From IMG/VR virus record IMGVR_UViG_3300031999_000006, positions 32,622 to 96,621 of that record: 64,000 bases of DNA. One strand, 5' to 3'. This stretch comes from a virus. Below the pieces are notes generated by a model, which made no database searches, was not told the origin of the DNA, and saw only the letters and a program-made list of their open reading frames with translations. This document shows positions 25,627 through 64,000 of the stretch, piece after piece (the first letter of the stretch is position 1; the number at the start of each line of letters is the position of its first letter). A program made the position numbers and the translations under genes.

Positions 25627-27252
25627 TCAATTCCTTGGACCCATCAGAAGATCGGCCAACTTATCGTAGTCCTTTTTACTAGGCAGTTTAATTCGGCGAA
25701 CCAGATCGGCATAGTCAACCTTGCCTTTACTTCCTTTGGTAATCCTCTTTTCCATGACGGGCAGTCCCTCCAAGTCATAAAACTGTCTTGGATCTTCAAC
25801 ACCAGCCATCTCAGCCGCCCAGATGCTAAGAAGAGTTGAACCGCACTGCCGGCATAAGAAGATCTCTCCCTTTTCCGATACATAGGGCTGGTCACAACTT
25901 ACTGTCATCCCAAAGGGAAAGTCTAGCTCCTTACCAAGGATCCACTCCTCGGACTTCATAATCTGTTGCATGACCGAAACGTAAGTGATGCGATCACCGA
26001 CTAGTGTTGAGTATTTAGTCATCTCCAGGAAGGCACGAACGAAGTACTCTGAGTTGTCAGGATAGAAGCCCTCCTCGGTGAGGTTACTCATTCCGGTAAC
26101 GAGGTGAACTCGATCCGACTTGTTACTCAGGATCTGCTGTTCCGCCAACGAGGCAAGGATGGATAGGAAAATTGCGTTGCGATTGCTCACCCACGCAGTC
26201 GTTGTCTTGATGTAACTCTCCGTCCCTGTCTCGATAGGAATGGTCGGTCTAATCAATGACGAAGGATCCCCCTTGAAGATGTTCTGTAAATCAATGCCGA
26301 CCCACTCCGAGCCCATGTAATCAGCAAGACGCCTGGAGGCCAAACTCTCTGCCTCCCAGCCCCGCTGACCATAGTTGAAGTTCACCAGAGTCACTCGGTA
26401 TCCCAGGCGCCTCATGACAAACGCGGACAGGCCACTATCAATCCCGCCGGAAGAGGAGACCAGGACAGACTCGCTATTGATCTTCACTGATGGCTTCCAT
26501 ACCGGATGGTATCGGTTGGGTTGGAAGGTCATGATCCTTTCCATCCCACTATCAAGATCAATCTCCCGAATGGTGTTTCCATCCTGCCAATGATAATACC
26601 AATCCTCCCACACATTCATTCCGCAACGCGGGGAGTCGGTGATCTTCCTAGTTACTGATTCGATCACGTCAAGACATGAGTGAAGTATAACCCCCTTTCC
26701 TCTGATACAACAGATTGCCAAAGGTTTGAAGTCATTGACACAGAACAGACGATTAGCTTCTTGATCATAGAGAAGAAAAGCAAACCCACCCACCATCTCC
26801 CCCATAACTTTCTCCATATTATGACTCGTTTGATAGGACTTGAGAATAACTTCACTATCAATCTTTGTTTGATAGTTGGAGTATTTGTCCACCACGAAAT
26901 TTGCCACTGAACCATTATGGGAAAGAATCAGCGCCCCCTCCTTTGTATATACAATCGGCTGAAGATTCTTATCTGAACTTTCAACTTCAGTCTCTGGTTG
27001 GGCACGGAAGTTCGCAATGATCAAACTACCCTTTACCGGGGCAGGATCCATCAACCAATTCTTAACCGCCCACTTGTCAATAGAATAGGTCTTCGTGGAC
27101 TTAAAGGTCAGTATCTCTTTCTTCCGGACATCAGGAACCAGAGCGATACCAAAGCCATCCTGTCCTCTATTCTCCGCCGCAGAGAACAACGCATCGTACG
27201 TATCCCAATCAAAGACCCCATCCCGATTCCAAACGCCCACTATGCCACACAT
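25627..27252 (-). CDS. gat-queC: Gat-QueC: class II glutamine amidotransferase fused to QueC-like domain
   Basis: 541 residues. The protein begins MCGIVGVWN, so Cys2 is the Ntn amidotransferase nucleophile; ENRGQDGFGIAL, NFRAQPET and ILSHNGSVANF complete the GATase II domain (about 1-230). The second domain has the PP-loop VSSSGGIDSGLS (266-277), VSNRNAIFLSILASLAEQQ, TGMSNLTEEGFYPDNSEYF and a zinc site ending LCRQCGS. In archaea Gat-QueC converts preQ0 to archaeosine (G+) on tRNA, and a relative accounts for deoxy-G+ in phage 9g. Its presence here predicts dG+ in DNA. Confidence 0.9.
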   Translation of the reverse strand: MCGIVGVWNRDGVFDWDTYDALFSAAENRGQDGFGIALVPDVRKKEILTFKSTKTYSIDKWAVKNWLMDPAPVKGSLIIANFRAQPETEVESSDKNLQPIVYTKEGALILSHNGSVANFVVDKYSNYQTKIDSEVILKSYQTSHNMEKVMGEMVGGFAFLLYDQEANRLFCVNDFKPLAICCIRGKGVILHSCLDVIESVTRKITDSPRCGMNVWEDWYYHWQDGNTIREIDLDSGMERIMTFQPNRYHPVWKPSVKINSESVLVSSSGGIDSGLSAFVMRRLGYRVTLVNFNYGQRGWEAESLASRRLADYMGSEWVGIDLQNIFKGDPSSLIRPTIPIETGTESYIKTTTAWVSNRNAIFLSILASLAEQQILSNKSDRVHLVTGMSNLTEEGFYPDNSEYFVRAFLEMTKYSTLVGDRITYVSVMQQIMKSEEWILGKELDFPFGMTVSCDQPYVSEKGEIFLCRQCGSTLLSIWAAEMAGVEDPRQFYDLEGLPVMEKRITKGSKGKVDYADLVRRIKLPSKKDYDKLADLLMGPRN

Positions 27253-28876: not shown

Positions 28877-29891
28877 ACTGTTCTCCTTTATAATATTTCG
28901 AGTCATGGAACTGAAAGACACCCATCCCAAATTCTTTTTGGTCGGTCTCGTAAAAGTGATCTGCCTGCCACCAGTAACTCCAGAAGCATCCCGGGCAATC
29001 TTGTCGATCTTGATCATTTGCGATTACAAAGTTGGAAAGGTTTTTCCTCACATCAAAAATCGAGAACTTAGGAGAGTGAGTGCCCCGCCGATAACCACAA
29101 CATCGCATCCGCCCATCAGCATCCACCGAATAGATCAGAGGCATCTTACAATGCCATGACATATCCATTCCATGCTTGATTGCATCGTCAAAGTATTCAG
29201 GTGGGTTTTGAACTTGGACGGTTCCTTTAATCACCTCTTCCTTGATCTTGAAGATGGAGTCCTCAAACCAAGACCTATCACTTTCCCGAAATACCAGATC
29301 AGGAATCTCCTCTGCCTTCGGGAAGAAATCGAAGCCACCGTCCTTATCCCAGTGAAGGAAGTTGATCGCCACCCAGATATCCTTGTCAGTCATCTGCTTT
29401 ACTGTAGCAAGTGCGTGTGCTAGTGTCTGACGAGATACCGTAAGTGTCCCATGCCTATCAGGGACTCCCAGAACCTTCGCCTCCTGAAGCGCAGAATAGG
29501 CACGACGTGACTTAATCTCCATGTCTCCCAATTTGACTTCTCGAGAGAAGTCCAGAATATCACATCCGCAACTCAGATTCTTGAGACCAGCCCGTACCAA
29601 GTCATACTTCAGTCGATCAAAAAGGCCAGGCGAGCAACTGCTGTACATAGCGTACGGCATCCTATCACCCAACCAACGAATGAAGTCAACAATACCTTGA
29701 ACCGCTAGAGGTTCGTTGCCTAGGATCAAGTGGAAAGAAACACCCAACTCCTCCAACTCCTCGAATGCCCTCTTCCACTGTGTGGTATCCATTTCCGATT
29801 CAGTCAACTTAGAATCCCGCAGACGGCAGTAGTCACACCGCATCGGACAGAACCGAGTCAGATAAACACAGGAGAATAGATACTTGTTCAT
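28854..29891 (-). CDS. Radical SAM protein with C-terminal Cys cluster (deazaguanine block)
   Basis: 345 residues. The cluster motif is FCPMRCDYCRLR (CxxxCxxC, about residues 14-25). The usual GGE is replaced by LILGNEPLAVQG. The C-terminal part has WHCKMPLIYSVDADGRMRCC and DCPGCFWSYWWQ, an auxiliary-cluster (SPASM/twitch-like) arrangement. It is unlike QueE, so it is a second, separate radical SAM activity. ATG 29891 overlaps the folE-fusion stop (ATGA), and the gene overlaps the methyltransferase start by 23 bases. Substrate unknown; genomic position suggests base or nucleotide chemistry. Confidence 0.85.
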   Translation of the reverse strand: MNKYLFSCVYLTRFCPMRCDYCRLRDSKLTESEMDTTQWKRAFEELEELGVSFHLILGNEPLAVQGIVDFIRWLGDRMPYAMYSSCSPGLFDRLKYDLVRAGLKNLSCGCDILDFSREVKLGDMEIKSRRAYSALQEAKVLGVPDRHGTLTVSRQTLAHALATVKQMTDKDIWVAINFLHWDKDGGFDFFPKAEEIPDLVFRESDRSWFEDSIFKIKEEVIKGTVQVQNPPEYFDDAIKHGMDMSWHCKMPLIYSVDADGRMRCCGYRRGTHSPKFSIFDVRKNLSNFVIANDQDRQDCPGCFWSYWWQADHFYETDQKEFGMGVFQFHDSKYYKGEQYDKKLQS

Positions 29892-30838
29892 TTCGATCCC
29901 AATCTTCCAAGGAACTCTGACTTGACCGCCGCCTCACGGAAGGATCCTCCAAGATAGTTGGTAAGCATCTTCACATTTTCCTTCTCAACTCCCCGAATCA
30001 TCATGCACAAATGTACACCCTCCACCACTACTCCTACTCCAAGTGGAGAAACTATTTTCTCAAACTCACGACCAATCTGCATGGTCATCCGTTCTTGAAT
30101 CTGAAGGCGACGAGAAAAGCAGTCCACCAGACGAGCGATCTTTGATACTCCAACGATTCGCTTATCCGGAATATAAGCAAAGTGTACCACGCCATAGAAG
30201 GGAAGCATGTGATGCTCACACATTGAGTAAAAGTGAATATCCCTTAGCATGATCATCTCATCGTATGACTCAGTTGAGAAAGCAGTACCTAGAATGGCTT
30301 CAGGATCCTGCCGGTACCCACTGGTCAACTCATTCCACATCTTGTCAATCCGCCGAGGAGTGTCACGAAGACCTTCTCGCATCGGATCCTCTCCGATTGA
30401 TCGTAACAGAGTAATGGTTGCCTGCTTTCGTCCGCCGGCCTCATCAGAATCTGTCTCCCACGGAAACTGATACCAGACATCCTTGGCCTTGTCCTCAGGT
30501 GTCTTGACGAATAAGGCATACGCCTTGAGATTCAACTTCCTTTTGGCGGCCTCGTCTTGGATGAACTGCAACGTAGCCCCTGAGTCCCAGATATCATCAA
30601 TGACCAGGATCGCTTCGTCCTTGAACTCATCCATCCACTTGGTAGTGAAAGGATCAACGACCTTGAAGTCAAACCTCTTACCGGTAATTGATGATAGGAG
30701 CGACTGAACCCTAATAGCGGGATAGATGCCTCCACGAGACACCCCCACGATCACGTCCGGAGGATACGGAACTTGCGTGTGCACCAGATCCTTCACCATC
30801 TCCCACACTTGATCAAAAGTCAGAAGTATCTTCTCCAT
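29888..30838 (-). CDS. folE: Phosphoribosyltransferase-GTP cyclohydrolase I (FolE) fusion
   Basis: 316 residues in one frame. Residues 1-135 are a purine-type phosphoribosyltransferase: VIVGVSRGGIYPAIR (29-43), PRPP loop LVIDDIWDSGAT (78-89) and VWYQFPWE, as in Gpt-like enzymes. Residues about 141-316 are FolE: IGEDPMREGLRDTPRRIDKM, the zinc site SMCEHHMLPF, DKRIVGVSKIARLVD, RLQIQERMTMQI and HLCMMIRGVE. FolE makes 7,8-dihydroneopterin triphosphate from GTP, the first step to 7-deazaguanine. A fused guanine-salvage domain could raise GTP supply. ATG 30838 has GAGGATTGATC before it. I do not recall this fusion being described. Confidence 0.9.
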   Translation of the reverse strand: MEKILLTFDQVWEMVKDLVHTQVPYPPDVIVGVSRGGIYPAIRVQSLLSSITGKRFDFKVVDPFTTKWMDEFKDEAILVIDDIWDSGATLQFIQDEAAKRKLNLKAYALFVKTPEDKAKDVWYQFPWETDSDEAGGRKQATITLLRSIGEDPMREGLRDTPRRIDKMWNELTSGYRQDPEAILGTAFSTESYDEMIMLRDIHFYSMCEHHMLPFYGVVHFAYIPDKRIVGVSKIARLVDCFSRRLQIQERMTMQIGREFEKIVSPLGVGVVVEGVHLCMMIRGVEKENVKMLTNYLGGSFREAAVKSEFLGRLGSK

Positions 30839-30840
30839 GA

Positions 30841-32208
30841 TCAATCCTCCATACCCGGCTCAACTATCAGACACTTTCCTTTGTTTACCTTTAGTGGAAT
30901 ACACCACTTGTCCGCCACCTCCCGACCGCCGGCCGAATAGATCCGGCAATCCTGATATCCATTGGTTGGCTCCGCCTTCGCCTCATCCTCTGACTGATTA
31001 AATGTCAGGATAATATCGGCATCCCGCATTGGTTCAATGGAGTCCCCAGAGTCCACCATTCCGATTACTTCCTTCTCTCCACCTCTGATTAATGTGCCAC
31101 GGTTGGCCTGGTGAACCAACCAGATCGCAACATCATACTCTTGTGCGACTGCCAATAGCTCCTTTGTAATCTGTCCCAGTTTTGCATACTTACCGCCGTC
31201 ACGATCAATAAGTTTTCCTGCGACTTCCATCAATCCCAGGTAGTCAAGCAATAGAACATCTATCCGAAGATTCTTCACGTTCCGAAGTTTTTGAAGATGG
31301 GCCTCGATGGTAGCGGCTGTGCACTTAAGAGGAGGAAAGTTCTTTATCACCAGTACTCCACACTGCATAGTTGCTAGCATTTCTCCGATCCTCGTTCGGA
31401 TCGCATCCTCGTTATCCTTTAGATTGTCTTTCACCACTCCTGAAAAGTGGGCGTCATATAAAACCATTGTTCGTCTAGCACTACTTTCCATTCCAATGTG
31501 CAAAACGTTTTTCCCCCTCAACAATGCCCCCCTAGCAAAATTCACCAGAGTAATTGTCTTACCCCGTTTCGTTGGGCCCATAATGATACCCAACTCCCCC
31601 TGCGCCAAACCACCACCTAAATGCCTATCAAGTGTTGGTATCCCTGTTGGAATAGCAACCTCACCTCGACACCAGCCGCTTTTTCTATCTGCCAATCGTT
31701 GCTCCAGTTCCTCAAAGTAGAATGACCCCATCTCATGCGTTGACTCTCCAACCGAAACGGCATCCTTGATCTCCTTAAGGATGCCCGGGTAGTCCCTTTT
31801 CTTTTGCAGTAAATTAATACTTTTCAGAATTGCTATCTTGACCAGTTGGTATTGTGCCCATGCTACCACTTGGTCACGAATGTAATGATAGTCCGTAACC
31901 TGGGCGCCCTCGAGCATAAGTTTGCTATACTGTTCCGTGTACACCTCACGAGGAAGAGGGCGCTTGGACATATCTAGATGAACATCCAGCTCCTGAGTTA
32001 ACTCCTCAAACTCAATACACCGGCCATACTTATCATGGAACTTTAGCATGATCCGAACCAGATCAGACAGAACAGGATTCTCAAAGTACTCTGGCTTCAC
32101 TATTTCTTTTACCATGAGAAATGACTCATGATCAAAAAACATCATGGCAACAATACGATGCTGTATTTCTTCCGTAAAGTCTTTTGTATATGTTTCTGGA
32201 TTAGACAT
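30841..32208 (-). CDS. dnaB: Replicative DNA helicase, DnaB-like
   Basis: 455 residues. A DnaB-type N-terminal helical domain (HRIVAMMFFDHESFLMVKEI, then PVLSDLVRIMLKFHDKYG) precedes a RecA-fold ATPase: PTGIPTLDRHLGGGLAQGEL, Walker A IIMGPTKRGKTITLVNFARG, Walker B VLLLDYLGLMEVAG and IWLVHQANRG. It unwinds the fork together with the primase at 7798-8745. It overlaps the upstream gene by 8 bases. Confidence 0.92.
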   Translation of the reverse strand: MSNPETYTKDFTEEIQHRIVAMMFFDHESFLMVKEIVKPEYFENPVLSDLVRIMLKFHDKYGRCIEFEELTQELDVHLDMSKRPLPREVYTEQYSKLMLEGAQVTDYHYIRDQVVAWAQYQLVKIAILKSINLLQKKRDYPGILKEIKDAVSVGESTHEMGSFYFEELEQRLADRKSGWCRGEVAIPTGIPTLDRHLGGGLAQGELGIIMGPTKRGKTITLVNFARGALLRGKNVLHIGMESSARRTMVLYDAHFSGVVKDNLKDNEDAIRTRIGEMLATMQCGVLVIKNFPPLKCTAATIEAHLQKLRNVKNLRIDVLLLDYLGLMEVAGKLIDRDGGKYAKLGQITKELLAVAQEYDVAIWLVHQANRGTLIRGGEKEVIGMVDSGDSIEPMRDADIILTFNQSEDEAKAEPTNGYQDCRIYSAGGREVADKWCIPLKVNKGKCLIVEPGMED

Positions 32209-32950
32209 ACTTTCCTACCTCACTACTTTCAACTGCCTTGGACAACTCATCCCGAACTCTCTGTAGTTCGTATGACTCTTCTTTTGTCAAGGTTTCCCAT
32301 GTCTCCGAAATATACTTGGTTAAGAAAATTGACCACCCCTCAACCTGTCTAAGTAAAGGAGAGGTGGCCACGTAAAAGCGAGTCACCATTCCTGATCTGG
32401 CCATTACCTCCAGAACCTCCAGTACCTCCTTCGGTTCCGGCAGTCGACCCAGTCGTTCCTGTTTCTTGGTCAGGACAGAAAGGAACGCATACCCCGAGTT
32501 GAGTATCGAGATCGTCAGATCCTTTTTGGGCAGACTGTAGAAAGCGCGCTCACGATCTGACTCGAGTTTGTATTGTGCCTTGATCCTTTCCTTATATCTC
32601 AGGAAGCGATCAATGGCTTTGTCTGTGAGCATCATGTCAAAGGTGACAGGAATCTTTTGTGCGGAGAAATAAGGTACGAGTATTTCGAACTGAGCCTTCA
32701 AGAATATCTCGATCTCAGTCTCTAACGCGACTACCAGCAGAATCAAACGCCGGATTTTCTCCTCAGCCTTAGCCCGGGCCGTGGGCGAGTTAATCATAGC
32801 ACCTTTGTAAAACCAACTCGGTCGCTTCTGGTAGTAGTGACAGTAAGCGGCGAACGTGTTGGCGATGTGACGGAATGTCTCGTGAGTCAAAAGCATCTCG
32901 ACTGCGTCAGCACCTGTTAACTCAACTGAGGCAAACTTCTTCTTATTCAC
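32201..32950 (-). CDS. Hypothetical protein upstream of replicative helicase
   Basis: 249 residues, largely helical and basic-acidic mixed. GTG start 32950 with AGGATTGATCA before it. Segments such as KIRRLILLVVALETEIEIF and FMVTR-like strands give no known family. As the gene directly before dnaB and behind a structured leader it may be a helicase loader or other replication-initiation factor; position is the only support. Confidence 0.6.
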   Translation of the reverse strand: MNKKKFASVELTGADAVEMLLTHETFRHIANTFAAYCHYYQKRPSWFYKGAMINSPTARAKAEEKIRRLILLVVALETEIEIFLKAQFEILVPYFSAQKIPVTFDMMLTDKAIDRFLRYKERIKAQYKLESDRERAFYSLPKKDLTISILNSGYAFLSVLTKKQERLGRLPEPKEVLEVLEVMARSGMVTRFYVATSPLLRQVEGWSIFLTKYISETWETLTKEESYELQRVRDELSKAVESSEVGKYV

Positions 32951-54452: not shown

Positions 54453-55703
54453 TTAGTCCCTCAAGTCCCAATACCAGTTTGTCGCAATTTGAAGATCGTC
54501 GAAATCAAGGTTAATACGAGCCGCCGTGCCCGTGGTATTACAATAAAAGGATACCTGAGTCCACAACTCACTCATGGTTCGACATGCCTTTGGAGCACCC
54601 ATCTGAACTCCATCAATGAAAACGAGTGCGTAGGGATTGGCCGCTCCTCCGACAATGAACAAGTCAACTTCGTACCACTGATTATTGTTTATGGGATTCA
54701 CTAACGAGATGATAGCCGTCCCAGTCCAAAAGGCCAAACTACCACCACTCACACTATTAAAATAAACCTGAGCGCAATCGGCATTGGATAATGTCCCAAT
54801 CTGAAATCCCTTTGTTCCCACCGTTTTATCTGACGTTCTCATTTTACAGTGGAAACGAGTCCCAAACGCGAGGCCCCAGGGCCATGCCGCACCAGTCAAT
54901 ATCCAACACCGTGAAGTCCCCTCTGTAACTGTATCACCATCGAGCTGTCCCATCTTATCCGCACCAGCATTAACGACAACCTTCGCCGTGGTATCCCCAA
55001 TTAAACTAGCATCCCATGCCGCAAAGTTAGTATAGGAACCTTGTCCAAGAATATTGGCAGTATTAAGCCCGTCGAATAGCTCACTAATAAGAGTACGCAT
55101 TCCTGGTTTAAGCCAGGTCCCAGCCCCACTCAAGAAGCTCTCGGTATCTCCGTCTCGCTTCGGAGCAAGGCCATGGAGTGTCGGCGAAACATCAAGGTCT
55201 GTGTTATCGTCCGGAGCGGCTAAATCGTCCAGCTTGATCGCATCAGCACCCCCACCACTTTCGTGTTGTGCCTTATGTAACGCGTCGGCAAACGCTGAGG
55301 CATGCTCTCCATCAACCTTGTCTGAATCACCTACCTGAGAGATAATGTCTCCACCGCCATGCTGATGGGAGACAGGAGCAAAGTCAGCAGCATGGTCTCC
55401 ATCGACCGTATCAGCATCCCCCGCCTCAGTGGCATAGTCAGACGCATCCACCACACCATCGTCGTTGGTATCGTAGATGGCCTTCATCATGTCGCCTGCA
55501 CCAGCGGCGGCAAACTCAAGACCATCTACAGTCGCCTTTACCACAACAACCTTTCCACCTTCCCCAACATAACTATTTGGAACATCCGTCAGGTCAGTAA
55601 AGGCAGATGCGCCACCCCCTATTGCCTTTATTCTTTTTAGATAGTTCTGTAGAATGCGATCAAGCTCCGCCTCAGTAATGAACCGCTCTCTGCTTCCAGG
55701 CAT
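54453..55703 (-). CDS. Tail fibre / receptor-binding protein
   Basis: 416 residues. After an N-terminal helix (EAELDRILQNYLKRIKAIGG) come fibre repeats of the type DTVDGDHAADFAPVSHQHGG and DKVDGEHASAFADALHK, and a calcium-loop-like DTNDDGVVDASDY. The C-terminal ~200 residues (ISELFDGLNTANILGQGSYT onward) look like a concanavalin/laminin-G-type lectin domain, with VDLFIVGGAANPYALVFIDG. Probably binds host surface sugars. It directly follows the radical SAM gene. Confidence 0.75.
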   Translation of the reverse strand: MPGSRERFITEAELDRILQNYLKRIKAIGGGASAFTDLTDVPNSYVGEGGKVVVVKATVDGLEFAAAGAGDMMKAIYDTNDDGVVDASDYATEAGDADTVDGDHAADFAPVSHQHGGGDIISQVGDSDKVDGEHASAFADALHKAQHESGGGADAIKLDDLAAPDDNTDLDVSPTLHGLAPKRDGDTESFLSGAGTWLKPGMRTLISELFDGLNTANILGQGSYTNFAAWDASLIGDTTAKVVVNAGADKMGQLDGDTVTEGTSRCWILTGAAWPWGLAFGTRFHCKMRTSDKTVGTKGFQIGTLSNADCAQVYFNSVSGGSLAFWTGTAIISLVNPINNNQWYEVDLFIVGGAANPYALVFIDGVQMGAPKACRTMSELWTQVSFYCNTTGTAARINLDFDDLQIATNWYWDLRD

Positions 55704-55705
55704 TG

Positions 55706-57046
55706 TTATCTCTCGCTAGGTTGATCTTCACACGTACCAGGTTTCTTATATTTCTTTCCCCAAAGTTCACCTGTACGAGCAAGTGTGACCAAGGATATCT
55801 CCGCCCACATTCTCTGAAACTTACAATGGTTGGTGAGAATCATCTTACGATCACCCGTGCACTGAAAGTTCATCGCATTACATCCACCCCGACAACGCCA
55901 ACGAGCAACACAATCGTCACACTTGAACCCCGAGGTGGGATCAGGATACATATACTCTCTCTTGAGATCCTGAACCTCAGCCAGTTTATGCTCATCAAAC
56001 CCTTTCCAAATATCACCTATCGCCAGTGATGGATCCGAGAACGAGGCGTATCGTTGGCAGGCAAACAACTTCCCTTCGGAATCAACGCCTACCACTCCTC
56101 GTGCAATTCCGCAAACGTGGCCGGTTTGTTCTTGGGCTCCGAGGAATCCAAGTCCATCCTCAATAAACTTCATCCAGATAGGCAGACCCGCCCGCCTTCG
56201 TTCTACATAAATCTCGGCAAGATTCTCATACATTAACCGGGCCTCTTGAAGGCTCTCATCTGTCCAATCCGCCTCGTAAGCCACCTCAGTAGCCACAATA
56301 TACAACCCCTTGCTATGAAACCAGCGAAGGTCAGCCAACCAGTCTGCTACCGTATCAGGGGTAATGGTCGGACGTATTTCCGGAGTTGGATAATACTCCA
56401 GGATCAAATCCAACGGAATAAGATGATGGGAGTTTCCCCCACCAACTGTCTTCCTATGATGATCATGAGTCTCGGGACGACCATCAATACTGAAGAGAGG
56501 AACCATCTCCCACTTCTTCATGAACTCCAAACGCTCCCGATTGAGAAGGGTTGCGTTGGTGGTCATGCCCCAACGAACTTTCCGTCCATACAACTTATTG
56601 TAATAGTCAGAGAACTCCTCTACAAATTGAGTGAGACTGTCCCACTCAACCGTTGGCTCTCCTCCGAAGAATTGAATACTGATGTCATGAGCGCCCAACC
56701 GTTTGTCTTCCTCCTCGGTGAGAAAGACTTTCAGCCGATCAAGCATTTCCTTAGTTGCGGAGATCGGTTTCTTCGTTGCGTAACAATAGGTACAACGAAG
56801 GTTACATTCGTTCGTTAGAAAAACGAAATAGTTTGCTTCGTTCTGCCCACTAGTACCTTTGTCTTTTTGATCAGCATAGCACTTTTGGCAGTGGTAACAA
56901 TCGGCACAGTCAATGGAATCATCCTTCACGAACCACTCCTCAGGAATCTTCCCATCGGCTTGAGCCTGAAGAAACATTTCTGCGTTCACATGTTTTGCTA
57001 CCCCTTTCTCGCAATGGTAACAGTTAAGACATGCTTTATCATTCAT
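55706..57046 (-). CDS. Radical SAM/SPASM peptide maturase
   Basis: 446 residues. The radical SAM motif is FLTNECNLRCTYCYATK (C81, C85, C88), with FFGGEPTVEWDS and SIDGRPETHDHHR as in anSME-type enzymes. The C-terminal SPASM domain is canonical: CGIA, LFACQRY, then CDDCVARWRCRGGC (CxxCx5Cx3C), FQC and NHC. The first 56 residues are an extra Cys region (C6, C9, C12, C47, C50, C53, C56) with CLNCYHC and CADCYHCQKC, the motif found in the neighbouring tail protein repeats. SPASM enzymes modify peptides, for example by thioether crosslinking. Gene order (tail protein, Cys peptide, this enzyme) points to those as substrates. Confidence 0.88.
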   Translation of the reverse strand: MNDKACLNCYHCEKGVAKHVNAEMFLQAQADGKIPEEWFVKDDSIDCADCYHCQKCYADQKDKGTSGQNEANYFVFLTNECNLRCTYCYATKKPISATKEMLDRLKVFLTEEEDKRLGAHDISIQFFGGEPTVEWDSLTQFVEEFSDYYNKLYGRKVRWGMTTNATLLNRERLEFMKKWEMVPLFSIDGRPETHDHHRKTVGGGNSHHLIPLDLILEYYPTPEIRPTITPDTVADWLADLRWFHSKGLYIVATEVAYEADWTDESLQEARLMYENLAEIYVERRRAGLPIWMKFIEDGLGFLGAQEQTGHVCGIARGVVGVDSEGKLFACQRYASFSDPSLAIGDIWKGFDEHKLAEVQDLKREYMYPDPTSGFKCDDCVARWRCRGGCNAMNFQCTGDRKMILTNHCKFQRMWAEISLVTLARTGELWGKKYKKPGTCEDQPSER

Positions 57047-57055
57047 AGTTTACTC

Positions 57056-57379
57056 CTATTGGTGCGTAACACATAACTGACAATTATTACAAATCTGACA
57101 AGTGGGACACTCCCCTGAATAACACGCCGACTGGCATGTATTACAAATCTGACACGTCGAACACTGAGCCGTATAACAACTTTGACACGAATCGCATAAC
57201 TGACAAGTGGGACACTGCCCTGTATAGCAGGCGGCTTGACAGGTATTACAAAGTTCACAAGTACCACACTGTCCTGTATAGCAGGCGGCTTGACATGCCA
57301 CACAAACCTGACAACTTCCGCATACGGCGGCAAAACATGCCTGACAGGCATCACAACTCTGACATGTTGGGCAAGCCAT
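57056..57379 (-). CDS. Cys-rich six-repeat peptide (putative maturase substrate)
   Basis: 107 residues from ATG 57379, which overlaps the tail gene stop (TAATG). Apart from MA and the final THQ it consists of six units of 17-18 residues, each of the form CxxCxxCxxCxxxC or CxxCxxCxxCxxC, for example CPTCQLCDSCQSCYTAQ. That makes 30 Cys, more than a quarter of the protein, with Gln, Thr, Ala and Tyr in fixed places. No signal peptide or separate leader is visible. The spacing recalls ranthipeptide/CXXX-repeat precursors and also Cys-core beta solenoids. It is 9 bases upstream of the radical SAM gene. Confidence 0.85.
   Translation of the reverse strand: MACPTCQSCDACQACFAAVCGSCQVCVACQAACYTGQCGTCELCNTCQAACYTGQCPTCQLCDSCQSCYTAQCSTCQICNTCQSACYSGECPTCQICNNCQLCVTHQ
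57100..57360 (-). repeat. Tandem 51-54 bp coding repeats in the Cys-rich gene
   Basis: The DNA encoding the Cys units is itself repetitive. The 20-mer at 57221-57240 recurs exactly at 57275-57294, 54 bases away, so these units were duplicated recently. Others are diverged in DNA but kept in protein, so both expansion and purifying selection are visible. Not a CRISPR: units are adjacent and coding. Confidence 0.8.
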
Positions 57380-59949
57380 TATGGTAAAATTCCTCCGTAG
57401 CATTTTTGACAGCTATCACATTTTTGACAGCTATCACAATGCATACAAGTAGTACACTCACCAGTGACACACTGTTGACAAGTTACACAAATTCCACACT
57501 GACCACCTTGACAAGCATCACATGACTGACATGTGTTACAAATCTGACAAGTGGTACATTGTCCCGAGACACACGCCTGGCAGTAATAGCAGGTTTGACA
57601 AGTCGCACATTGACCAGAGACACAAAGTTGGCAGGCATAACAACTTGTACAAGCACCAGACTGCACCGTATTACAAACTTGGCAGTGATAACACACCTCA
57701 CAAAACCCACCGCCCGACGATTGTAAATCTTCCCAAGCAATGACTCCAACCTTTCCTGACTGCATGGACTTTTTAAGGTCTAGCAATCTGTACGGTTCGG
57801 AAGCCAGAACGGAGTAAACTGTCCCATCGGAAAGCAATCGTGTCTTTGTGATGATCACCTTACTCCCGGGGAAAGAAGAAAACATTTTAGAGGGAAGTAT
57901 ACCAGTAACCTTTTTCAAAGGATCTTGTAAAACGCCGACGTAATAAGCCCCCAACTCCTCGGCATCGGCCTGCAATCGAAGTGAGGTGGTTAAGGGAAGT
58001 GTTAGCTCGTTTCCATGCTTCCACTCAGTCTTTGCCGAAACAATCTCAACACTAGAGTAATGATTCTCACTAGGTAGAAGACCATAATTAATCTGGATTG
58101 TTTTGTAGACACCTTCAGTATCAAACTCCAAACCAAAGTCCTCAATCTCCTCATCAACAACTACTGGAGTATTACTATCCGTTCCTTCATAATATCGAAA
58201 CGCGCCTAGTTGCCCGTTAAGTAAAGGGGACAAGTGGAAGAGGGCGGACACCTGAAGAGTACGAACGCTCTCTAGTGCGGGGGATGACGTACTTAGATAA
58301 AGATGATGCTTTTGTGAACGTCCGGATTGTAGATCAAGAAAGGACTTTAACTCAATGTAACTGAACTCAACTCCAGCATAGGTGGTCAAGAGATCGAATA
58401 AGATATCGGCAACGTTCTCGGAGTAGGCGCCATCAAGTATTCCGCACTTCCGGCCCTTAACATGGGCCACAACAAAGGCCTGACCAGGGTCGGCCACGAG
58501 AGAGAACTCACCATTGGCAAGGTCAACTGAGTAGTCAGCCGGGGTGGCCAGTAGTTGACCATTCTTCCAAACATTCACGATCGCCTCAAGTTCGTGGCAG
58601 GCCAACTTGAATGTGTAGGGATCTTTCCCACCGACTATTCCAGAGGAGGCATTAATACAAGTGGCAACCACTTCCTCAAACTCACCATAGATAATCGGTA
58701 TAGGAGTACCTTCAGCACCATCCTCAAGTTCGGAATAGTTATCTACCTCATAGGTTGTTAGAGGAACGTTCTTATATGTGAACGCCTTATGGTCAATTAC
58801 GTCAACTGAAACTATAAGATCACTAGCCTTTGGATATCTAGCCAAACCATGGAAGACATCTTCATATTGATCATAAGTGAAGTCCTTGGCACCGAATCGT
58901 ATTACCACATCCTTTAGATTCCAATAATACTTCTGCACCTGCTCATACCACCAACCATCGTTCAAGAATTGAAGTGAACCAAACTCCATCGTCATCGCGC
59001 TCTCGTGAAAGGGAGAAACCGACTGGTGAAGTTCAGGCATTCCTGCGGTAGTGATATAAGGAAGATAAGGATTCTGTTCCCGTTCAATGATCAAGCTTGC
59101 CTTGTCGAAGTAACAGGATGCTGAAGCAGACGAGTCACTCTTAAAGGTTATAATGTAATCTATGTACGAGGCATTGGCAACAAAGGTCAAAGTGTGGGTG
59201 GTCCACTCTGTCTGGTTACTGAGTGCAATCTGATCTGGTGAAGCACCCCAAGATCCATCACTGGCCAAGTAGACATTATCTGCTGAATCTTTGATCTCAA
59301 TAGCTGAAGTTGCCGAACCGGTATGCTTGTATCGAACGATCACCTTACAAGTTGCATCAGGAACCAATCGGATATGTTGGTGTACTGAGGCCTCATTGTT
59401 CCCAGCATCAATGTCCAACCGAACGCAAAAAGCACCATCGTCAGCCTCAGTCTGCTCCCGATTGACAGTAGAGGTACCAGCTTCACCTTTCGTCCAGTTC
59501 ACTGGTGTAGTCGCGTCACTCCAACGCTCATAGCTACCATCAATCAGCGCGGAACCTATTCTGGGAAGGACGATTAAAGCATCACCATACTGAGTGTTGG
59601 CGAAGTATCTCCAGAAGTAGGCCAAGACAACATAGTCATATAATGGAGGTGCTGTCTGGGTTCCAGGATCATCAGTATCAGTCGTATGCAGATAAAGTTT
59701 TTGGTTAGCCAAGTCATAATAAAAATACTCGGCGTTGTCGTCTGCCTCCTGAAGGGAGTAGGCTTCGGTATACTCAACTCCGTCTTGGGTTACTCGAGAG
59801 ACCACACCGTCTGTATATGAAGACCACCAAAGATTTGTATAGACACCATCCTGCTCCCAAGCCAAGGACTCAACTTCGTGACACGGTTCGATCTCAGCGA
59901 GAAAGACCTTCCACGAATCAGTCTTGGCAATCAATTGCTGGAAGTTCAC
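57379..59949 (-). CDS. Tail/baseplate protein with inserted carbohydrate-binding-like domain and Cys-repeat C-terminus
   Basis: 856 residues, GTG start 59949 (GAGGAGTTAAGATA). Residues 1-110 resemble a hub/distal tail N-terminus. About 130-290 is an inserted beta domain (YERWSDATTPVNWTKGEAGT, then HTLTFVANASYIDYIITF) like a carbohydrate-binding module. The middle looks like phage tail-associated proteins (NVADILFDLLTTYAG, then FGLEFDTEGVYKTIQINYG). From about residue 749 to the end there are 30 Cys in roughly 100 residues: CYHCQVC, CATCQTCYYCQAC, CTTCQICNTCQSCDAC and similar. The same unit type makes up the next gene. The Cys domain should protrude from the baseplate or tip. Confidence 0.75.
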   Translation of the reverse strand: MNFQQLIAKTDSWKVFLAEIEPCHEVESLAWEQDGVYTNLWWSSYTDGVVSRVTQDGVEYTEAYSLQEADDNAEYFYYDLANQKLYLHTTDTDDPGTQTAPPLYDYVVLAYFWRYFANTQYGDALIVLPRIGSALIDGSYERWSDATTPVNWTKGEAGTSTVNREQTEADDGAFCVRLDIDAGNNEASVHQHIRLVPDATCKVIVRYKHTGSATSAIEIKDSADNVYLASDGSWGASPDQIALSNQTEWTTHTLTFVANASYIDYIITFKSDSSASASCYFDKASLIIEREQNPYLPYITTAGMPELHQSVSPFHESAMTMEFGSLQFLNDGWWYEQVQKYYWNLKDVVIRFGAKDFTYDQYEDVFHGLARYPKASDLIVSVDVIDHKAFTYKNVPLTTYEVDNYSELEDGAEGTPIPIIYGEFEEVVATCINASSGIVGGKDPYTFKLACHELEAIVNVWKNGQLLATPADYSVDLANGEFSLVADPGQAFVVAHVKGRKCGILDGAYSENVADILFDLLTTYAGVEFSYIELKSFLDLQSGRSQKHHLYLSTSSPALESVRTLQVSALFHLSPLLNGQLGAFRYYEGTDSNTPVVVDEEIEDFGLEFDTEGVYKTIQINYGLLPSENHYSSVEIVSAKTEWKHGNELTLPLTTSLRLQADAEELGAYYVGVLQDPLKKVTGILPSKMFSSFPGSKVIITKTRLLSDGTVYSVLASEPYRLLDLKKSMQSGKVGVIAWEDLQSSGGGFCEVCYHCQVCNTVQSGACTSCYACQLCVSGQCATCQTCYYCQACVSGQCTTCQICNTCQSCDACQGGQCGICVTCQQCVTGECTTCMHCDSCQKCDSCQKCYGGILP

Positions 59950-60713
59950 TATCTTAACTCCTCAATGGAACACACCGCATTGAAGTATGCCTCTCCGAAG
60001 ACATGATCAATCGTAGGTTTGGATGAAAACCGGACATACCAGGTCGTGGTGGAAGGGAGATCCCGGTCTCTGGTGAAAAAGAATTCTCGTCCGATACCAC
60101 GATCTAGAAACATCGCATCAAAGTTATCAGCATCAACAGCGGGTAGATTTTCAAACTTCATATCCATAGTGCGGTAGCGAGTTTTCTGATTAGTAACAAT
60201 CTGCCCACCAGAAGAAAACATCACATCTGACGGATCCTCGGTCGACTTTTTATAATCAATGGACATATTGATTGACGGACTGAGGTAGGGACCAAGGAAG
60301 ATCCGTCCGATCTCCAGATAAGCCGCCACCGGTGCAGTGTCAACAATCAATACTCGCCAGTATTGATAGGGAGTTTGAGGTGCCAACCAAAAGTAGGCCA
60401 TGAGTTCCGCAACTGGTACCTCAACATCAATGTACAAATTCCCGAAAGCAGGATCATCATCGGCTTGAATACTAACCACCGCCGAAGGTGAGAAATTATG
60501 CTTTTTTATAGCGAAGGCTTGTATCGCTGGAGGAGAGGCACCAAAGTCGGCTACAATGGACTCCGTCAATGTCCCGGTATTGTTGATGCTTCGCCAGGTT
60601 CTTGTATGCCACCGGTGCTGGGTATTGATCGCTGGGAAGAGGGGGTTCTCCGTACTAGGAGTCAGCGTGGCGAGATCCCACTTGTTACTATACATAAATG
60701 TGCAGTTGGTCAT
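59949..60713 (-). CDS. Tail protein (distal-tail / minor tail type)
   Basis: 254 residues between tape measure and hub-like gene, the place of distal tail proteins. Beta-rich with TESIVADFGASPPAIQAFAI, PYQYWRVLIVDTAPVAAYLE, IGRIFLGPYLSP and FFFTRDRDLPSTTTWYVRFS. The first part resembles discoidin-like beta domains seen in minor tail proteins. Its stop overlaps the next GTG. Confidence 0.65.
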   Translation of the reverse strand: MTNCTFMYSNKWDLATLTPSTENPLFPAINTQHRWHTRTWRSINNTGTLTESIVADFGASPPAIQAFAIKKHNFSPSAVVSIQADDDPAFGNLYIDVEVPVAELMAYFWLAPQTPYQYWRVLIVDTAPVAAYLEIGRIFLGPYLSPSINMSIDYKKSTEDPSDVMFSSGGQIVTNQKTRYRTMDMKFENLPAVDADNFDAMFLDRGIGREFFFTRDRDLPSTTTWYVRFSSKPTIDHVFGEAYFNAVCSIEELR

Positions 60714-63700
60714 TATCCTCTCCCTCTAACCGCCCGAGGCCGTACCAAGATTCGTTCATCAGCACTGGCCTTTTGAACCCACTCAATCACTAACGACTGA
60801 AGATGCTTGAAAGGAATGATCACCGGTTCAAAGGTCACATTCTTTTCAATCACGGTAACTTGGGATCCATCACTCTCTACCTTGCCCGGTCTTCCGATCC
60901 TCACCGCCTCGGTCACTCCAGGTTCAACATAGAATGTTCTTGGTCCTGTTACCGTACCTTCAAACCCATGCTGGGCTCTTGTGGTCTGCCGCCCTCCCGC
61001 CTCTTGACTATCTCGCGTCTCTTCACCAATTTTTATGAGGCGGTCAGCACGACCAATAAGATCACTAAACCCTTCCGCAAGTATCGTATTAATATCCTTG
61101 CCTCTCTCTTTCCAAGTACCGGCCAACTTTGCTTGGGCAATCAGCATCTCCGTACCAGCATCAAGTTTTAGTCCATATTGTTCAGCATAATAGGCCAGAT
61201 CAGATAAGGTCGGAGAGACCATCGCCATCGCTTGTTTAGGATCAAGTCCGGCCGAGATCAGTTTATCATAATATCCAGTAGCCTGTGTAGAAAGATCCGC
61301 CAGTGATTCGGCAGTTAGGAAGCCGGTATCACCAAGTGCCTTAAGTAGTTGTCTTGTTCCTTCAAGACCCTCAAACAATCCCTCGTTCGCTTTTTGTATA
61401 TCAACCAATTTGAAAAGATCCTCAATCGCGGCTCCACCAGTGAGACCCAACTCCGTGTACTTGTCACGAAGGGCAACAAGGGAGTCCCCCATCAGAGCAA
61501 AGGTTTCAGACATACTTTTGCCTTGCTGAATAAACGAACTGAACATCGCCACAGTCAGGCGACCAACTCTCTCCAACTCTGGAGCAAGTCCAGAAGCCAG
61601 AGAAGTTTTCAGATCGTCATACTTTTTGCGCAACTCCTCCAACTGGGCCTTTTTCTGGAGGTACTCACGCTGGGCGGCCCGCTCAGAGATCTTAGACATG
61701 GACAACTTATCAACTTCTTCGCCCAAAGTCTTTATCTCATCACGATAGGTGATCAACTGCTTATAACCTGAACCGCCGACCGACTCAACCATAGACTTCA
61801 AGCCGCCCGCACCTTTCTCAAGGGCTCCAAAGACATAGTCATCCACTTCAGCAATACTTACTCCGATCTTCCTGAGATACTGCATGAAAGAGACCAATGC
61901 CTTAGATCCCTCCTTATCGAACTTTTGTGCCCAGGTGATCAAGGCGTTGAAAGCTGAACCTATTGCATCCATCCCCTTCTGTACATCAACTGTTCCGCTT
62001 GCCATATCCCGAAGTGCCTGAGTCATCTTCGTAACATAACCCTGAAGGTTCTTCATTGAGATTCCGGCGTCGTTCATCACATCAGTCAATGTCATGATCG
62101 TAGCGGTTTGTTTGTTATACTGCTTGGTTAGATCAATAATCTTTTTCGCTGTGGCCTCAGTAATGTCTCCCAAACTCTTATACGACTTGGTCACGGAGTC
62201 AACTTGCTTCTTCAGTTCCTCGGCGGCCTTTTGTTCGGCAGTTTTCTTTTTCTTGAACAACCCACCAAAGAGTCCACCAACAAGCGATCCGATCACATTA
62301 CCAACACCAGGGAGGATGGAACCGAGAGCACCACCTAACGCGGCTCCGATGCCTCCGTAAGTATTCGCTCCACCTCCACCAATCAATCCACCCAAGGCGG
62401 CGCCCAACGCACCGGCCAGTTCACCACTCAATTCCTTAAAGGCTTTCTTCAAATTCTTGAAGTCCATCTTTCCTTTACCACCCATCTCATTAAACTGTCT
62501 GGTCAAACTGGAAGCTATCTGTCCGGCAACAGAGGCGGCCGCTGTCACTAGTGGTTTCAACTTTTCGCCAGCAGTGTCACCAAAGACCTGCAAGGCAGTG
62601 CCTAAAGCTGAGAAACCTTTGATCATATCACTACTCATTCCCTTTGCGGCTTCTGCGGCCTTGTCAATGATCTTCTGATACTCCTTAGGAACCGTCAAAC
62701 CCAACTGATGATAAAGATCGGCGATCATGGTCACCGCCGTAACTTCATCCTGGTGAGTGATGTCGGCAGTTGCCTTTAGTGAACGATAGGCTTCCTCAAC
62801 TTCAACGAGTTTGTATTTATACTGAGTTGCCCTTTGTATTCCAAGTAGAGCGGCCTTCTCGTCCATAAATCCTGAAAAGTATCGAGGAGGAGGAGTGGGA
62901 TACTGAACCGCAGGACCCATCATCTGTTCCTCAGTCATAAGTCCTGGGGCCTCAAGATTCCATTTCTTTGGCGAAGGAAGCGGAGTTTCGGCCACCTTGG
63001 TCATATTGTTTAGCGTGGCAGTAAGAGTAGGATCTAATTTCTTCAACGCCTCATTGATCGCATCAATTCCTGCTTGATAGTTTGCCCAAGTGATGTTGCC
63101 GGCTTCCATTTCCTTTTTCAGATCCCAGAAGTCCTTTGTAATCTTGATGACTTCGACGGAGACTTCCGTCTTGGTCAGTATGCCGAGATTCAGGAGAGCT
63201 TGACTATTCTTTCCTAATACAGCGCCCAGTTCCCTTAGTTCTTTCTTCATACGATCGTAGTCAATCTTGGTCATCTGGTCGCCGAAGTCCGCAAGACCCT
63301 GCTTTAGTGTGTCATAACGATCCTGAACTTCTGTCTTCAGAGTGTAACCATAACCCTTCAGCATCTCACGCAAACCAGCTAGGCGATTGGTTTCGGCTTC
63401 TGCCGCAGTTGCCGCCGCCTGGGAAGACTCACTTAAGGCCTTCTTCTCTTCCACCTTTGCCTTGATCAATTTCTCAGTCCCGTTGTTAACTGCCTCTAGT
63501 GCCGCACTATATGAACCGTACTTGATCTTTAGTTGAATAGCACTCTCACCAGTATCCCGGAGTGCGGCTTTTAGATCAGTCATGGCTTTTAGTTGCTTCG
63601 TATTCTCGGCTCCGGCTCCCCAGTCACCGATCTCGAGAATCTTTTTCTTCAGACCGGTCACATCACTAAGCCATTCACCAATCTTCCAACCTGCGGCGAA

Positions 63701-64000
63701 GGCGGCTAACGCGGCGACTGCTGTGCCCAAGGCGGCAGTGATGCCACTCATCGCTCCGGCAAGGCGGGGCATGGTAGTGAGTCCAGTTTCTATCCCGGCC
63801 ATCAATAGTCTTCCGAAAGAGACCGCCTTGGAGGCAACAGTAAAGGCCAACCAGACCTTAAACAACAGAACCAACTCATCCTTGAACTTGACTATGAACT
63901 TGATCGCATCACCAATTGCCTTACCGATGCTAAGTCCAGTGGTAATTACACTCTGAGTCAATGCGTCAATTCGCTTCTTCATCTCCTCAGCAGACCCAGC
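60713..64000 (-). CDS. Tape measure protein (partial, runs off right edge)
   Basis: At least 1,095 residues; the frame is open to the window edge. The ATG at 63982 lacks a spaced ribosome site and follows coding-like AGSAEE, so the true start is outside. Features: long amphipathic helices, hydrophobic Gly/Ala-rich stretch (GALGAALGGLIGGGG to GNVIGSLVGGLFGGLF, about residues 530-590) next to a basic KKKKTAEQKAAEELKK, and many coiled-coil segments. It sets tail length and may enter the membrane during DNA ejection. Followed by distal tail genes, as usual. Confidence 0.85.
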   Translation of the reverse strand, partial: AGSAEEMKKRIDALTQSVITTGLSIGKAIGDAIKFIVKFKDELVLLFKVWLAFTVASKAVSFGRLLMAGIETGLTTMPRLAGAMSGITAALGTAVAALAAFAAGWKIGEWLSDVTGLKKKILEIGDWGAGAENTKQLKAMTDLKAALRDTGESAIQLKIKYGSYSAALEAVNNGTEKLIKAKVEEKKALSESSQAAATAAEAETNRLAGLREMLKGYGYTLKTEVQDRYDTLKQGLADFGDQMTKIDYDRMKKELRELGAVLGKNSQALLNLGILTKTEVSVEVIKITKDFWDLKKEMEAGNITWANYQAGIDAINEALKKLDPTLTATLNNMTKVAETPLPSPKKWNLEAPGLMTEEQMMGPAVQYPTPPPRYFSGFMDEKAALLGIQRATQYKYKLVEVEEAYRSLKATADITHQDEVTAVTMIADLYHQLGLTVPKEYQKIIDKAAEAAKGMSSDMIKGFSALGTALQVFGDTAGEKLKPLVTAAASVAGQIASSLTRQFNEMGGKGKMDFKNLKKAFKELSGELAGALGAALGGLIGGGGANTYGGIGAALGGALGSILPGVGNVIGSLVGGLFGGLFKKKKTAEQKAAEELKKQVDSVTKSYKSLGDITEATAKKIIDLTKQYNKQTATIMTLTDVMNDAGISMKNLQGYVTKMTQALRDMASGTVDVQKGMDAIGSAFNALITWAQKFDKEGSKALVSFMQYLRKIGVSIAEVDDYVFGALEKGAGGLKSMVESVGGSGYKQLITYRDEIKTLGEEVDKLSMSKISERAAQREYLQKKAQLEELRKKYDDLKTSLASGLAPELERVGRLTVAMFSSFIQQGKSMSETFALMGDSLVALRDKYTELGLTGGAAIEDLFKLVDIQKANEGLFEGLEGTRQLLKALGDTGFLTAESLADLSTQATGYYDKLISAGLDPKQAMAMVSPTLSDLAYYAEQYGLKLDAGTEMLIAQAKLAGTWKERGKDINTILAEGFSDLIGRADRLIKIGEETRDSQEAGGRQTTRAQHGFEGTVTGPRTFYVEPGVTEAVRIGRPGKVESDGSQVTVIEKNVTFEPVIIPFKHLQSLVIEWVQKASADERILVRPRAVRGRG

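Follow-up and report, generated by a model that had tools for sequence, protein, structure and literature searches.

Why would a tailed phage carry a radical S-adenosylmethionine (SAM) enzyme with a SPASM domain directly behind its tail-tip gene? The question is raised by a window of 64,000 nucleotides from the IMG/VR virus record IMGVR_UViG_3300031999_000006 (positions 32,622–96,621 of the record; all coordinates below are window positions). The source virus is a virus of bacteria, and its record of 96,621 bases includes phage replication genes. Three adjoining minus-strand genes encode a predicted tail-tip hub (57379–59949), a separate Cys-repeat protein (57056–57379), whose gene begins with the final base of the hub stop codon, and the radical SAM/SPASM enzyme (55706–57046). 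A preliminary description of this DNA had reported a tail protein with a Cys-repeat tail, a 107-residue Cys peptide and a radical SAM/SPASM enzyme; all three were found where it had placed them, with the 30 Cys of the tail and the canonical SPASM Cys pattern. My answer, to which I assign a probability of roughly 0.6, is that the enzyme cross-links two paired repeat chains, the hub tail and the separate protein, into a tail-tip spike. The features concerned are the following.

57703–59949, minus strand: body (residues 1–749) of the predicted tail-tip hub, 856 amino acids in all, with a fold like T5 pb3 and lambda gpJ by AlphaFold and Foldseek
59080–59526, minus strand: carbohydrate-binding-like insertion in the hub, residues ∼142–290 (profiles below cut-off, Foldseek, alignment gap)
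57382–57702, minus strand: C-terminal Cys-repeat tail of the hub, residues 750–856 (107 residues, 30 Cys; Cys steps mostly 3 and 5)
57056–57379, minus strand: separate Cys-repeat protein, 107 amino acids counted from the second ATG, 30 Cys, equal in length to the hub tail and its proposed partner
55706–57046, minus strand: radical SAM/SPASM maturase, 446 amino acids (PF04055, 42 bits, above cut-off)
56837–57046, minus strand: N-terminal stretch of the enzyme, residues 1–70, with two tethered units CxxC[YFV]xC[QE]K, identified by sequence
56783–56806, minus strand: CxxxCxxC motif of the radical SAM core, residues 81–88 (C81, C85, C88), invariant in 11 sequences
55823–56113, minus strand: SPASM domain, residues 312–408, with seven canonical Cys, invariant in 11 sequences

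Relatives were gathered by scanning 2.9 million viral contigs. Ten enzyme members form one clade with a support of 99, and L015, whose structural protein has no recognisable homology to the hub, lies nearby. A Cys-repeat protein adjoins the enzyme in 12 of the 12 distinct virus loci of this clade; the window and L002, both counted, are one species or nearly so, and L005 was left out because its contig ends within the enzyme N-terminus. The order recurs, namely a structural protein with a Cys tail, a separate Cys protein and an enzyme with a Cys-repeat N-terminus, and each Cys tail located by DNA pattern adjoins the enzyme, or its first codons where the contig ends. The same neighbour criterion is passed by 4 of 69 loci of cellular radical SAM relatives, one of the four being a low-complexity frame, and no prophage or cellular member of the enzyme clade was found among the best 80 genome loci. 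According to the preliminary description, enzyme and Cys repeats belong together, and enzymes lacking such a neighbour would speak against this; with 0 exceptions among the 12 loci, the proposal is strongly supported. I consider it close to certain that the enzyme, the hub tail and the partner chain are coupled.

The two chains also match in length. In all 12 viruses (in L015 the Cys-tailed protein is fibre-like, not a hub), the hub Cys tail and the separate protein are of near-equal length over a range of 101–309 residues (mean difference 5.7, r = 0.995). The target chains hold 29–83 Cys, and when the Cys counts were permuted, 0 of 100,000 permutations came as close as the observed pairs. The match holds within each of two subclades, a split which is the only way in which kinship was handled. 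Outside the Cys positions, hub tail and separate protein are as similar within one virus (identity 0.33) as between viruses (0.33), and less so than orthologues in subclade 1 (0.42–0.50). Gene conversion or recent copying, considered as the cause of the length match, is ruled out by this equality. Since the lengths agree despite no extra likeness within a virus, the two chains probably pair. The enzyme bears repeats of its own, C6/C9/C12 and C47/C50/C53/C56, which are also invariant and which the preliminary description had overlooked; across viruses its N-terminus holds 2–5 copies, and the copy number tracks the Cys count of the hub tail (rho 0.91). The simplest reading of these sequences is that the two chains would pair along their length, and that the repeat units of the enzyme would dock on them. 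Two small Cys proteins of matching length, one spanning 65 residues with 18 Cys and the other 66 with 19, also lie ahead of a radical SAM gene in L259 (2–890), a phage whose baseplate and fibre genes belong to a different tail type; the contig end cuts this radical SAM gene.

The chains follow a marked residue grammar. The repeat core C[QE]xC[DN]xC[QE]xC occurs 5 times in the window, against 0 in 100 dinucleotide-preserving shuffles, and Cys steps of three dominate in the repeat chains, with spacings of 3 and 5 in the hub tail. Between the window and L007 or L302, 29 of 29 or 30 of 30 Cys are kept, while the other residues of the Cys chains are 47–58% identical. At position +4 from a Cys, 76% of the residues other than Cys are Gln, Glu, Asp or Asn (995, against a mean of 482 and a maximum of 542 in shuffles), and the +4 residue usually also directly follows the next Cys. 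The maturase PapB links Cys to Asp or Glu in Cys-X3-Asp/Glu motifs, nested rungs included (PMC9413430). In the window chains, Asp or Glu is at +4 for 4 of the 30 Cys per chain, rising to 20–22 of 30 if Asn and Gln are counted too. Control phage proteins with CxxC runs, whose fetched stretch contains no radical SAM gene, show C-X3-[DENQ] in 27% of cases, under their own shuffle mean. A broad CxxC-run DNA pattern gave, among the matches listed, mostly simple repeats and this separate protein family (L208, L258, L277, L280, L299 and others), which served solely as a negative control; its x-[DN]-C steps represent a different residue grammar.

By sequence, the enzyme has both hallmarks of the radical SAM/SPASM peptide maturase superfamily, the CxxxCxxC core and the seven-Cys SPASM set (C312-X12-G325-X4-C330, C376-X2-C379-X5-C385-X3-C389, C408). 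Its best NCBIfam profile is that of PapB (NF047865, 193.2 bits, cut-off 340; the L015 relative reaches 280.6 bits), followed by the SCIFF maturase CteB (TIGR03974, 124.9 bits, cut-off 425); it scores 122.3 bits against QhpD (TIGR03906, cut-off 453) and 76.8 bits against the CXXX-repeat maturase (TIGR04115, cut-off 350). The PapB and SCIFF profiles match all 11 members, and for the window enzyme the sactipeptide and cyclophane families score far below these two. CteB is the nearest solved structure, both by sequence profile (213 bits) and by fold, and the fold matches also include ChlB and anSME, the anaerobic sulfatase maturase, which is the second structural relative. In one relative (L006, 7273–9597), an intein lies inside the CxxxCxxC motif of the radical SAM gene (LAGLIDADG_3 59.8 bits; Hint below cut-off).

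The AlphaFold model of the hub has a mean predicted local distance difference test score (pLDDT) of 62. Its Foldseek matches include the tail tips of T5 (7zqp/7zhj, E 3e-15) and lambda (8xcg, E 3e-12), with a template modelling score to T5 of 0.36–0.45 for this mid-confidence model, and phrog_8917 is matched by all 8 hubs. The modelled T5/lambda fold agrees with the place of the hub gene after the tape measure gene, and the protein thus combines the predicted T5 pb3/lambda gpJ fold with the position, after tape measure and distal tail, of a siphophage baseplate hub. Such hubs are trimers in T5-like tails. The Cys tail sits C-terminal to the hub fold. The insertion at residues ∼142–290 gives a partial match to NF048003 (GTA_spike_fiber) below cut-off; the L007 homologue scores 23.8 bits against CBM_4_9 (cut-off 25.9), CBM4 structures turn up among the hub Foldseek matches, and an alignment gap shows the insertion to be missing from the L013, L029 and L032 hubs. 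Compared with the closest relative, L301, synonymous divergence (dS) is 0.87 in the hub body and 0.07 in the tape measure gene, and the adjoining Cys tail has zero differences; judged from these values, the hub body is a recombination mosaic in its probable receptor-binding part. Querying the proteins of cultured phages with the hub, and with the separate Cys protein, gave no match.

The preliminary description had also named the tail tip as the target of the enzyme, which is strongly supported by the T5/lambda-like fold of the hub and by the thioether-forming CteB being the nearest solved relative of the enzyme. My inference goes further, to a modification that would be a cross-link and would make a rigid spike.

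One hub homologue, in L313 (1066–4442; 28–31% identical), lacks the Cys tail. Instead, the final 118 residues contain 18 His-X-Asp motifs (against a mean of 4.3 in shuffles, with 0 of 20,000 reaching that number). The next gene overlaps the end of the hub gene and codes for another kind of radical SAM/SPASM-like enzyme; among its best profiles, which all score far under their cut-offs, cyclophane-forming maturases (AmcB, FxsB, DynA, YhhB) predominate. This hub tail is known from one contig; a search for more relatives of its enzyme returned none, as did one for further hubs without a Cys tail. With either repeat, Cys or His-X-Asp, a radical SAM gene follows the hub, which supports hub tail modification as the shared theme.

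Comparable pairs are found in other phage groups. In the clade containing L061, a Cys-repeat protein lies beside the radical SAM enzyme in 13 of 14 loci, and the L061 enzyme, the member tested, scores 455 bits against TIGR04115, above the cut-off of 350. Proteins with Cys/Gly/Ser repeats adjoin radical SAM enzymes in L061, L044, L067, L038, L041, L051, L063, L099 and L222, several in fibre modules. L200 (2383–4224), L240 and L070 combine CQTCQGC-repeat proteins with a radical SAM gene, two of these proteins coming after the tail fibre in L200, and a further phage group pairs a protein with CTCDCNY repeats with a radical SAM enzyme. Among cultured phages, SPN3US (L322, NC_027402.1, 143194–144229, minus strand) has two tandem Cys/Gly/Ser-repeat frames of 133 and 134 codons, with Cys spans of 81 and 84 residues, 2–3 kb from two radical SAM genes. 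Both frames are absent from the RefSeq annotation, where gp100, called in the wrong frame, overlaps one, and the repeat stretch matches 35 phage records. Erwinia phage Caitlin (L324, NC_031120.1, 142218–143011) has a similar pair of Cys-repeat proteins near radical SAM genes, and in Campylobacter phage CPt10 (L323, NC_027996.1, 160062–161687) gp145, with 35 Cys, is near the radical SAM protein gp141. In Phage Phass-1 (L018, 9103–10650), a radical SAM gene is followed by a frame with Cys-rich ends in which TAG is read as Gln. It is tentatively suggested, at somewhat less than even odds, that many tailed phages use their own radical SAM enzyme, which bears tethered repeats tracking chain length, to staple two repeat chains of matching length covalently into an element of the tail tip or fibre, the chemistry being exchangeable (a Cys thioether ladder in most, a His-X-Asp cyclophane in one hub).

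How might the window module work? Its recurrence in other viruses makes the trio look like a tail tip that is stapled chemically, and it may be a self-contained maturation module. The hub would bear a Cys-repeat chain at its distal C-terminus, the separate Cys protein would be a second chain of equal length pairing with it, and the enzyme, by means of its tethered repeat copies, would modify both before or during tail assembly. Hub tail and partner chain are very probably its substrates. The likeliest chemistry would be a thioether ladder, from each Cys to the residue four positions on (Cys-X3-Asp/Glu/Asn/Gln), with rungs nested as PapB can do; a cross-link of thioether type is put here at even odds, and Gln or Asn as acceptors would be new. 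The product would be a stapled spike or fibre at the tip, resistant to reduction. For a paired spike at the tip the chances are likewise balanced; enzyme action on these Cys, pairing of the chains in the virion and a mechanical role are all part of what is proposed here.

Several observations weigh against this reading. The +4 residues in the window are mostly Gln, which is no reported PapB acceptor in PMC9413430; strict PapB chemistry would therefore use just 4 of the 30 Cys per chain, which leaves amide acceptors or a different chemistry. The enzyme is under the curated cut-off of every named maturase family. Library scans gave no Pfam or NCBIfam match to a RiPP (ribosomally synthesized and post-translationally modified peptide) recognition element (RRE) in its residues 1–70, a stretch of low confidence in the model, and recognised no leader peptide. 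The hub Cys tail is not modelled confidently (pLDDT ∼30), and radical SAM enzymes require a low-oxygen cytoplasm.

Other explanations account for part of these observations. The CxxC steps are typical metal ligands, and the repeats could form a metal or Fe-S array, in a polyferredoxin-like or zinc-rich tip, with the enzyme making a minor or other change or aiding cluster loading; the separate protein has CxxCxxCxxxC stretches resembling the 4Fe-4S motif as generally known, and zf-NF-X1 matches weakly, below cut-off. However, the hub tail spacings of 3 and 5 are unlike the ferredoxin pattern, Fe-S or zinc proteins would not be expected to be strictly linked with a SPASM maturase, phage proteins with CxxC runs exist without the enzyme and with another grammar, and the exchange of Cys for His-X-Asp together with another radical SAM enzyme in L313 better fits cross-linking, which makes such an array unlikely. 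A similarly low probability goes to the idea that these chains undergo some other radical SAM reaction, giving Cys-alpha (sactionine) thioethers, carbon-carbon links, epimerised residues or formylglycine. The superfamily is broad and the anaerobic sulfatase maturase is a structural relative, but the sactipeptide and cyclophane profiles fall well behind those of PapB and SCIFF. Formylglycine formation was rejected, as the chains have no CxPxR sulfatase motif.

The true product might instead be the separate Cys protein, as a modified peptide that is an effector or resembles a bacteriocin, with the hub tail as a mere docking copy or decoy. The small size of the separate protein and the small peptides among RiPP precedents would suit this, but the length match to the hub tail in every virus would be left unexplained, and the module neighbours in the window and its relatives are tail genes; I find this very improbable. 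It is just as hard to credit that the Cys tail forms a fibre of disulfide or solenoid type with no need of an enzyme, and the radical SAM gene unrelated cargo at the same place: CxxC-run phage proteins with no such gene in the fetched stretch do exist, but the unbroken co-occurrence, the substrate-length-tracking repeats of the enzyme itself and the independent recurrence in other phage groups all argue against it.

Gene order around the module is tape measure, distal tail, hub, separate Cys protein, enzyme and then a probable fibre, with these neighbouring features:

60713–63982, minus strand: tape measure protein, its gene probably truncated where the virus record ends (phrog_167; TMP_3 below cut-off)
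59949–60713, minus strand: probable distal tail protein, upstream of the hub (phrog_8610, function not known, 77 bits)
54453–55703, minus strand: probable tail fibre protein, downstream of the module (weak match to the tail protein phrog_11660)

Homologues of the distal tail protein, whose role is proposed from gene order, are at the equivalent place in L003–L007 and L013, and a fibre-like gene follows the enzyme in L004 and L013 as well. Elsewhere in the window (25627–27252 and 29888–30844), QueC-like, glutamine aminotransferase-like and GTP cyclohydrolase/phosphoribosyltransferase-like genes suggest, by sequence likeness, a 7-deazaguanine DNA modification pathway.

If the cross-linked spike proves true, enzymatic stapling joins the ways in which phages toughen their tails, radical SAM peptide chemistry reaches beyond small peptides to long structural chains, and the overlooked or wrongly framed Cys-repeat genes of SPN3US, Caitlin and CPt10 are accounted for. 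The broader reading across many phages would add a new class to the known forms of virion maturation and open up a large store of radical SAM cross-linking at protein scale, in which Gln and Asn may be new acceptors.

Among known systems, PapB (NF047865) with its substrate PapA is the best NCBIfam match, and shares the radical SAM and SPASM domains; its Cys-X3-acidic target motifs, with nested cross-links allowed (PMC9413430), may have a counterpart in the window chains. PapB differs in acting on a small precursor with a leader, whereas the likely substrates here are a virion hub tail and its partner chain, in which the +4 residue is mostly Gln or Asn. CteB/SCIFF (TIGR03974, PDB 5wgg/5why) is a thioether former and the closest solved structure, but no peptide with six Cys in 45 residues is found here, and the enzyme N-terminus consists of Cys repeats, with no recognised RRE. 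The CXXX-repeat maturase and target (TIGR04115/TIGR04117) likewise pair a Cys-repeat protein with a maturase; in that system the Gly/Ser-rich target stands alone, with an N-terminal domain of its own and no hub fusion, and has Cys at every fourth residue, as opposed to steps of three. QhpD (TIGR03906), which matures quinohemoprotein amine dehydrogenase, makes several Cys-acidic thioethers within a protein subunit, but that of a cellular enzyme, not a virion. The T5 pb3 and lambda gpJ baseplate hubs resemble the window hub in fold and gene order, and I know of no Cys-repeat C-terminus described for them. I neither know of nor found a structural protein of any virus that a radical SAM enzyme matures. 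The open-licence literature (subscription journals and preprints being outside its scope) returned nothing describing phage radical SAM enzymes with Cys-repeat tails. The novelty claimed in the preliminary description has to be narrowed, since NCBIfam already names a radical SAM/CXXX-repeat pair (TIGR04115), with members in phage fibre modules, though none on a tail hub. A maturase with a Cys-repeat target is known already; within the searches made, what is new is its deployment on the hub of a phage tail, together with the paired chains and the repeats borne by the enzyme.

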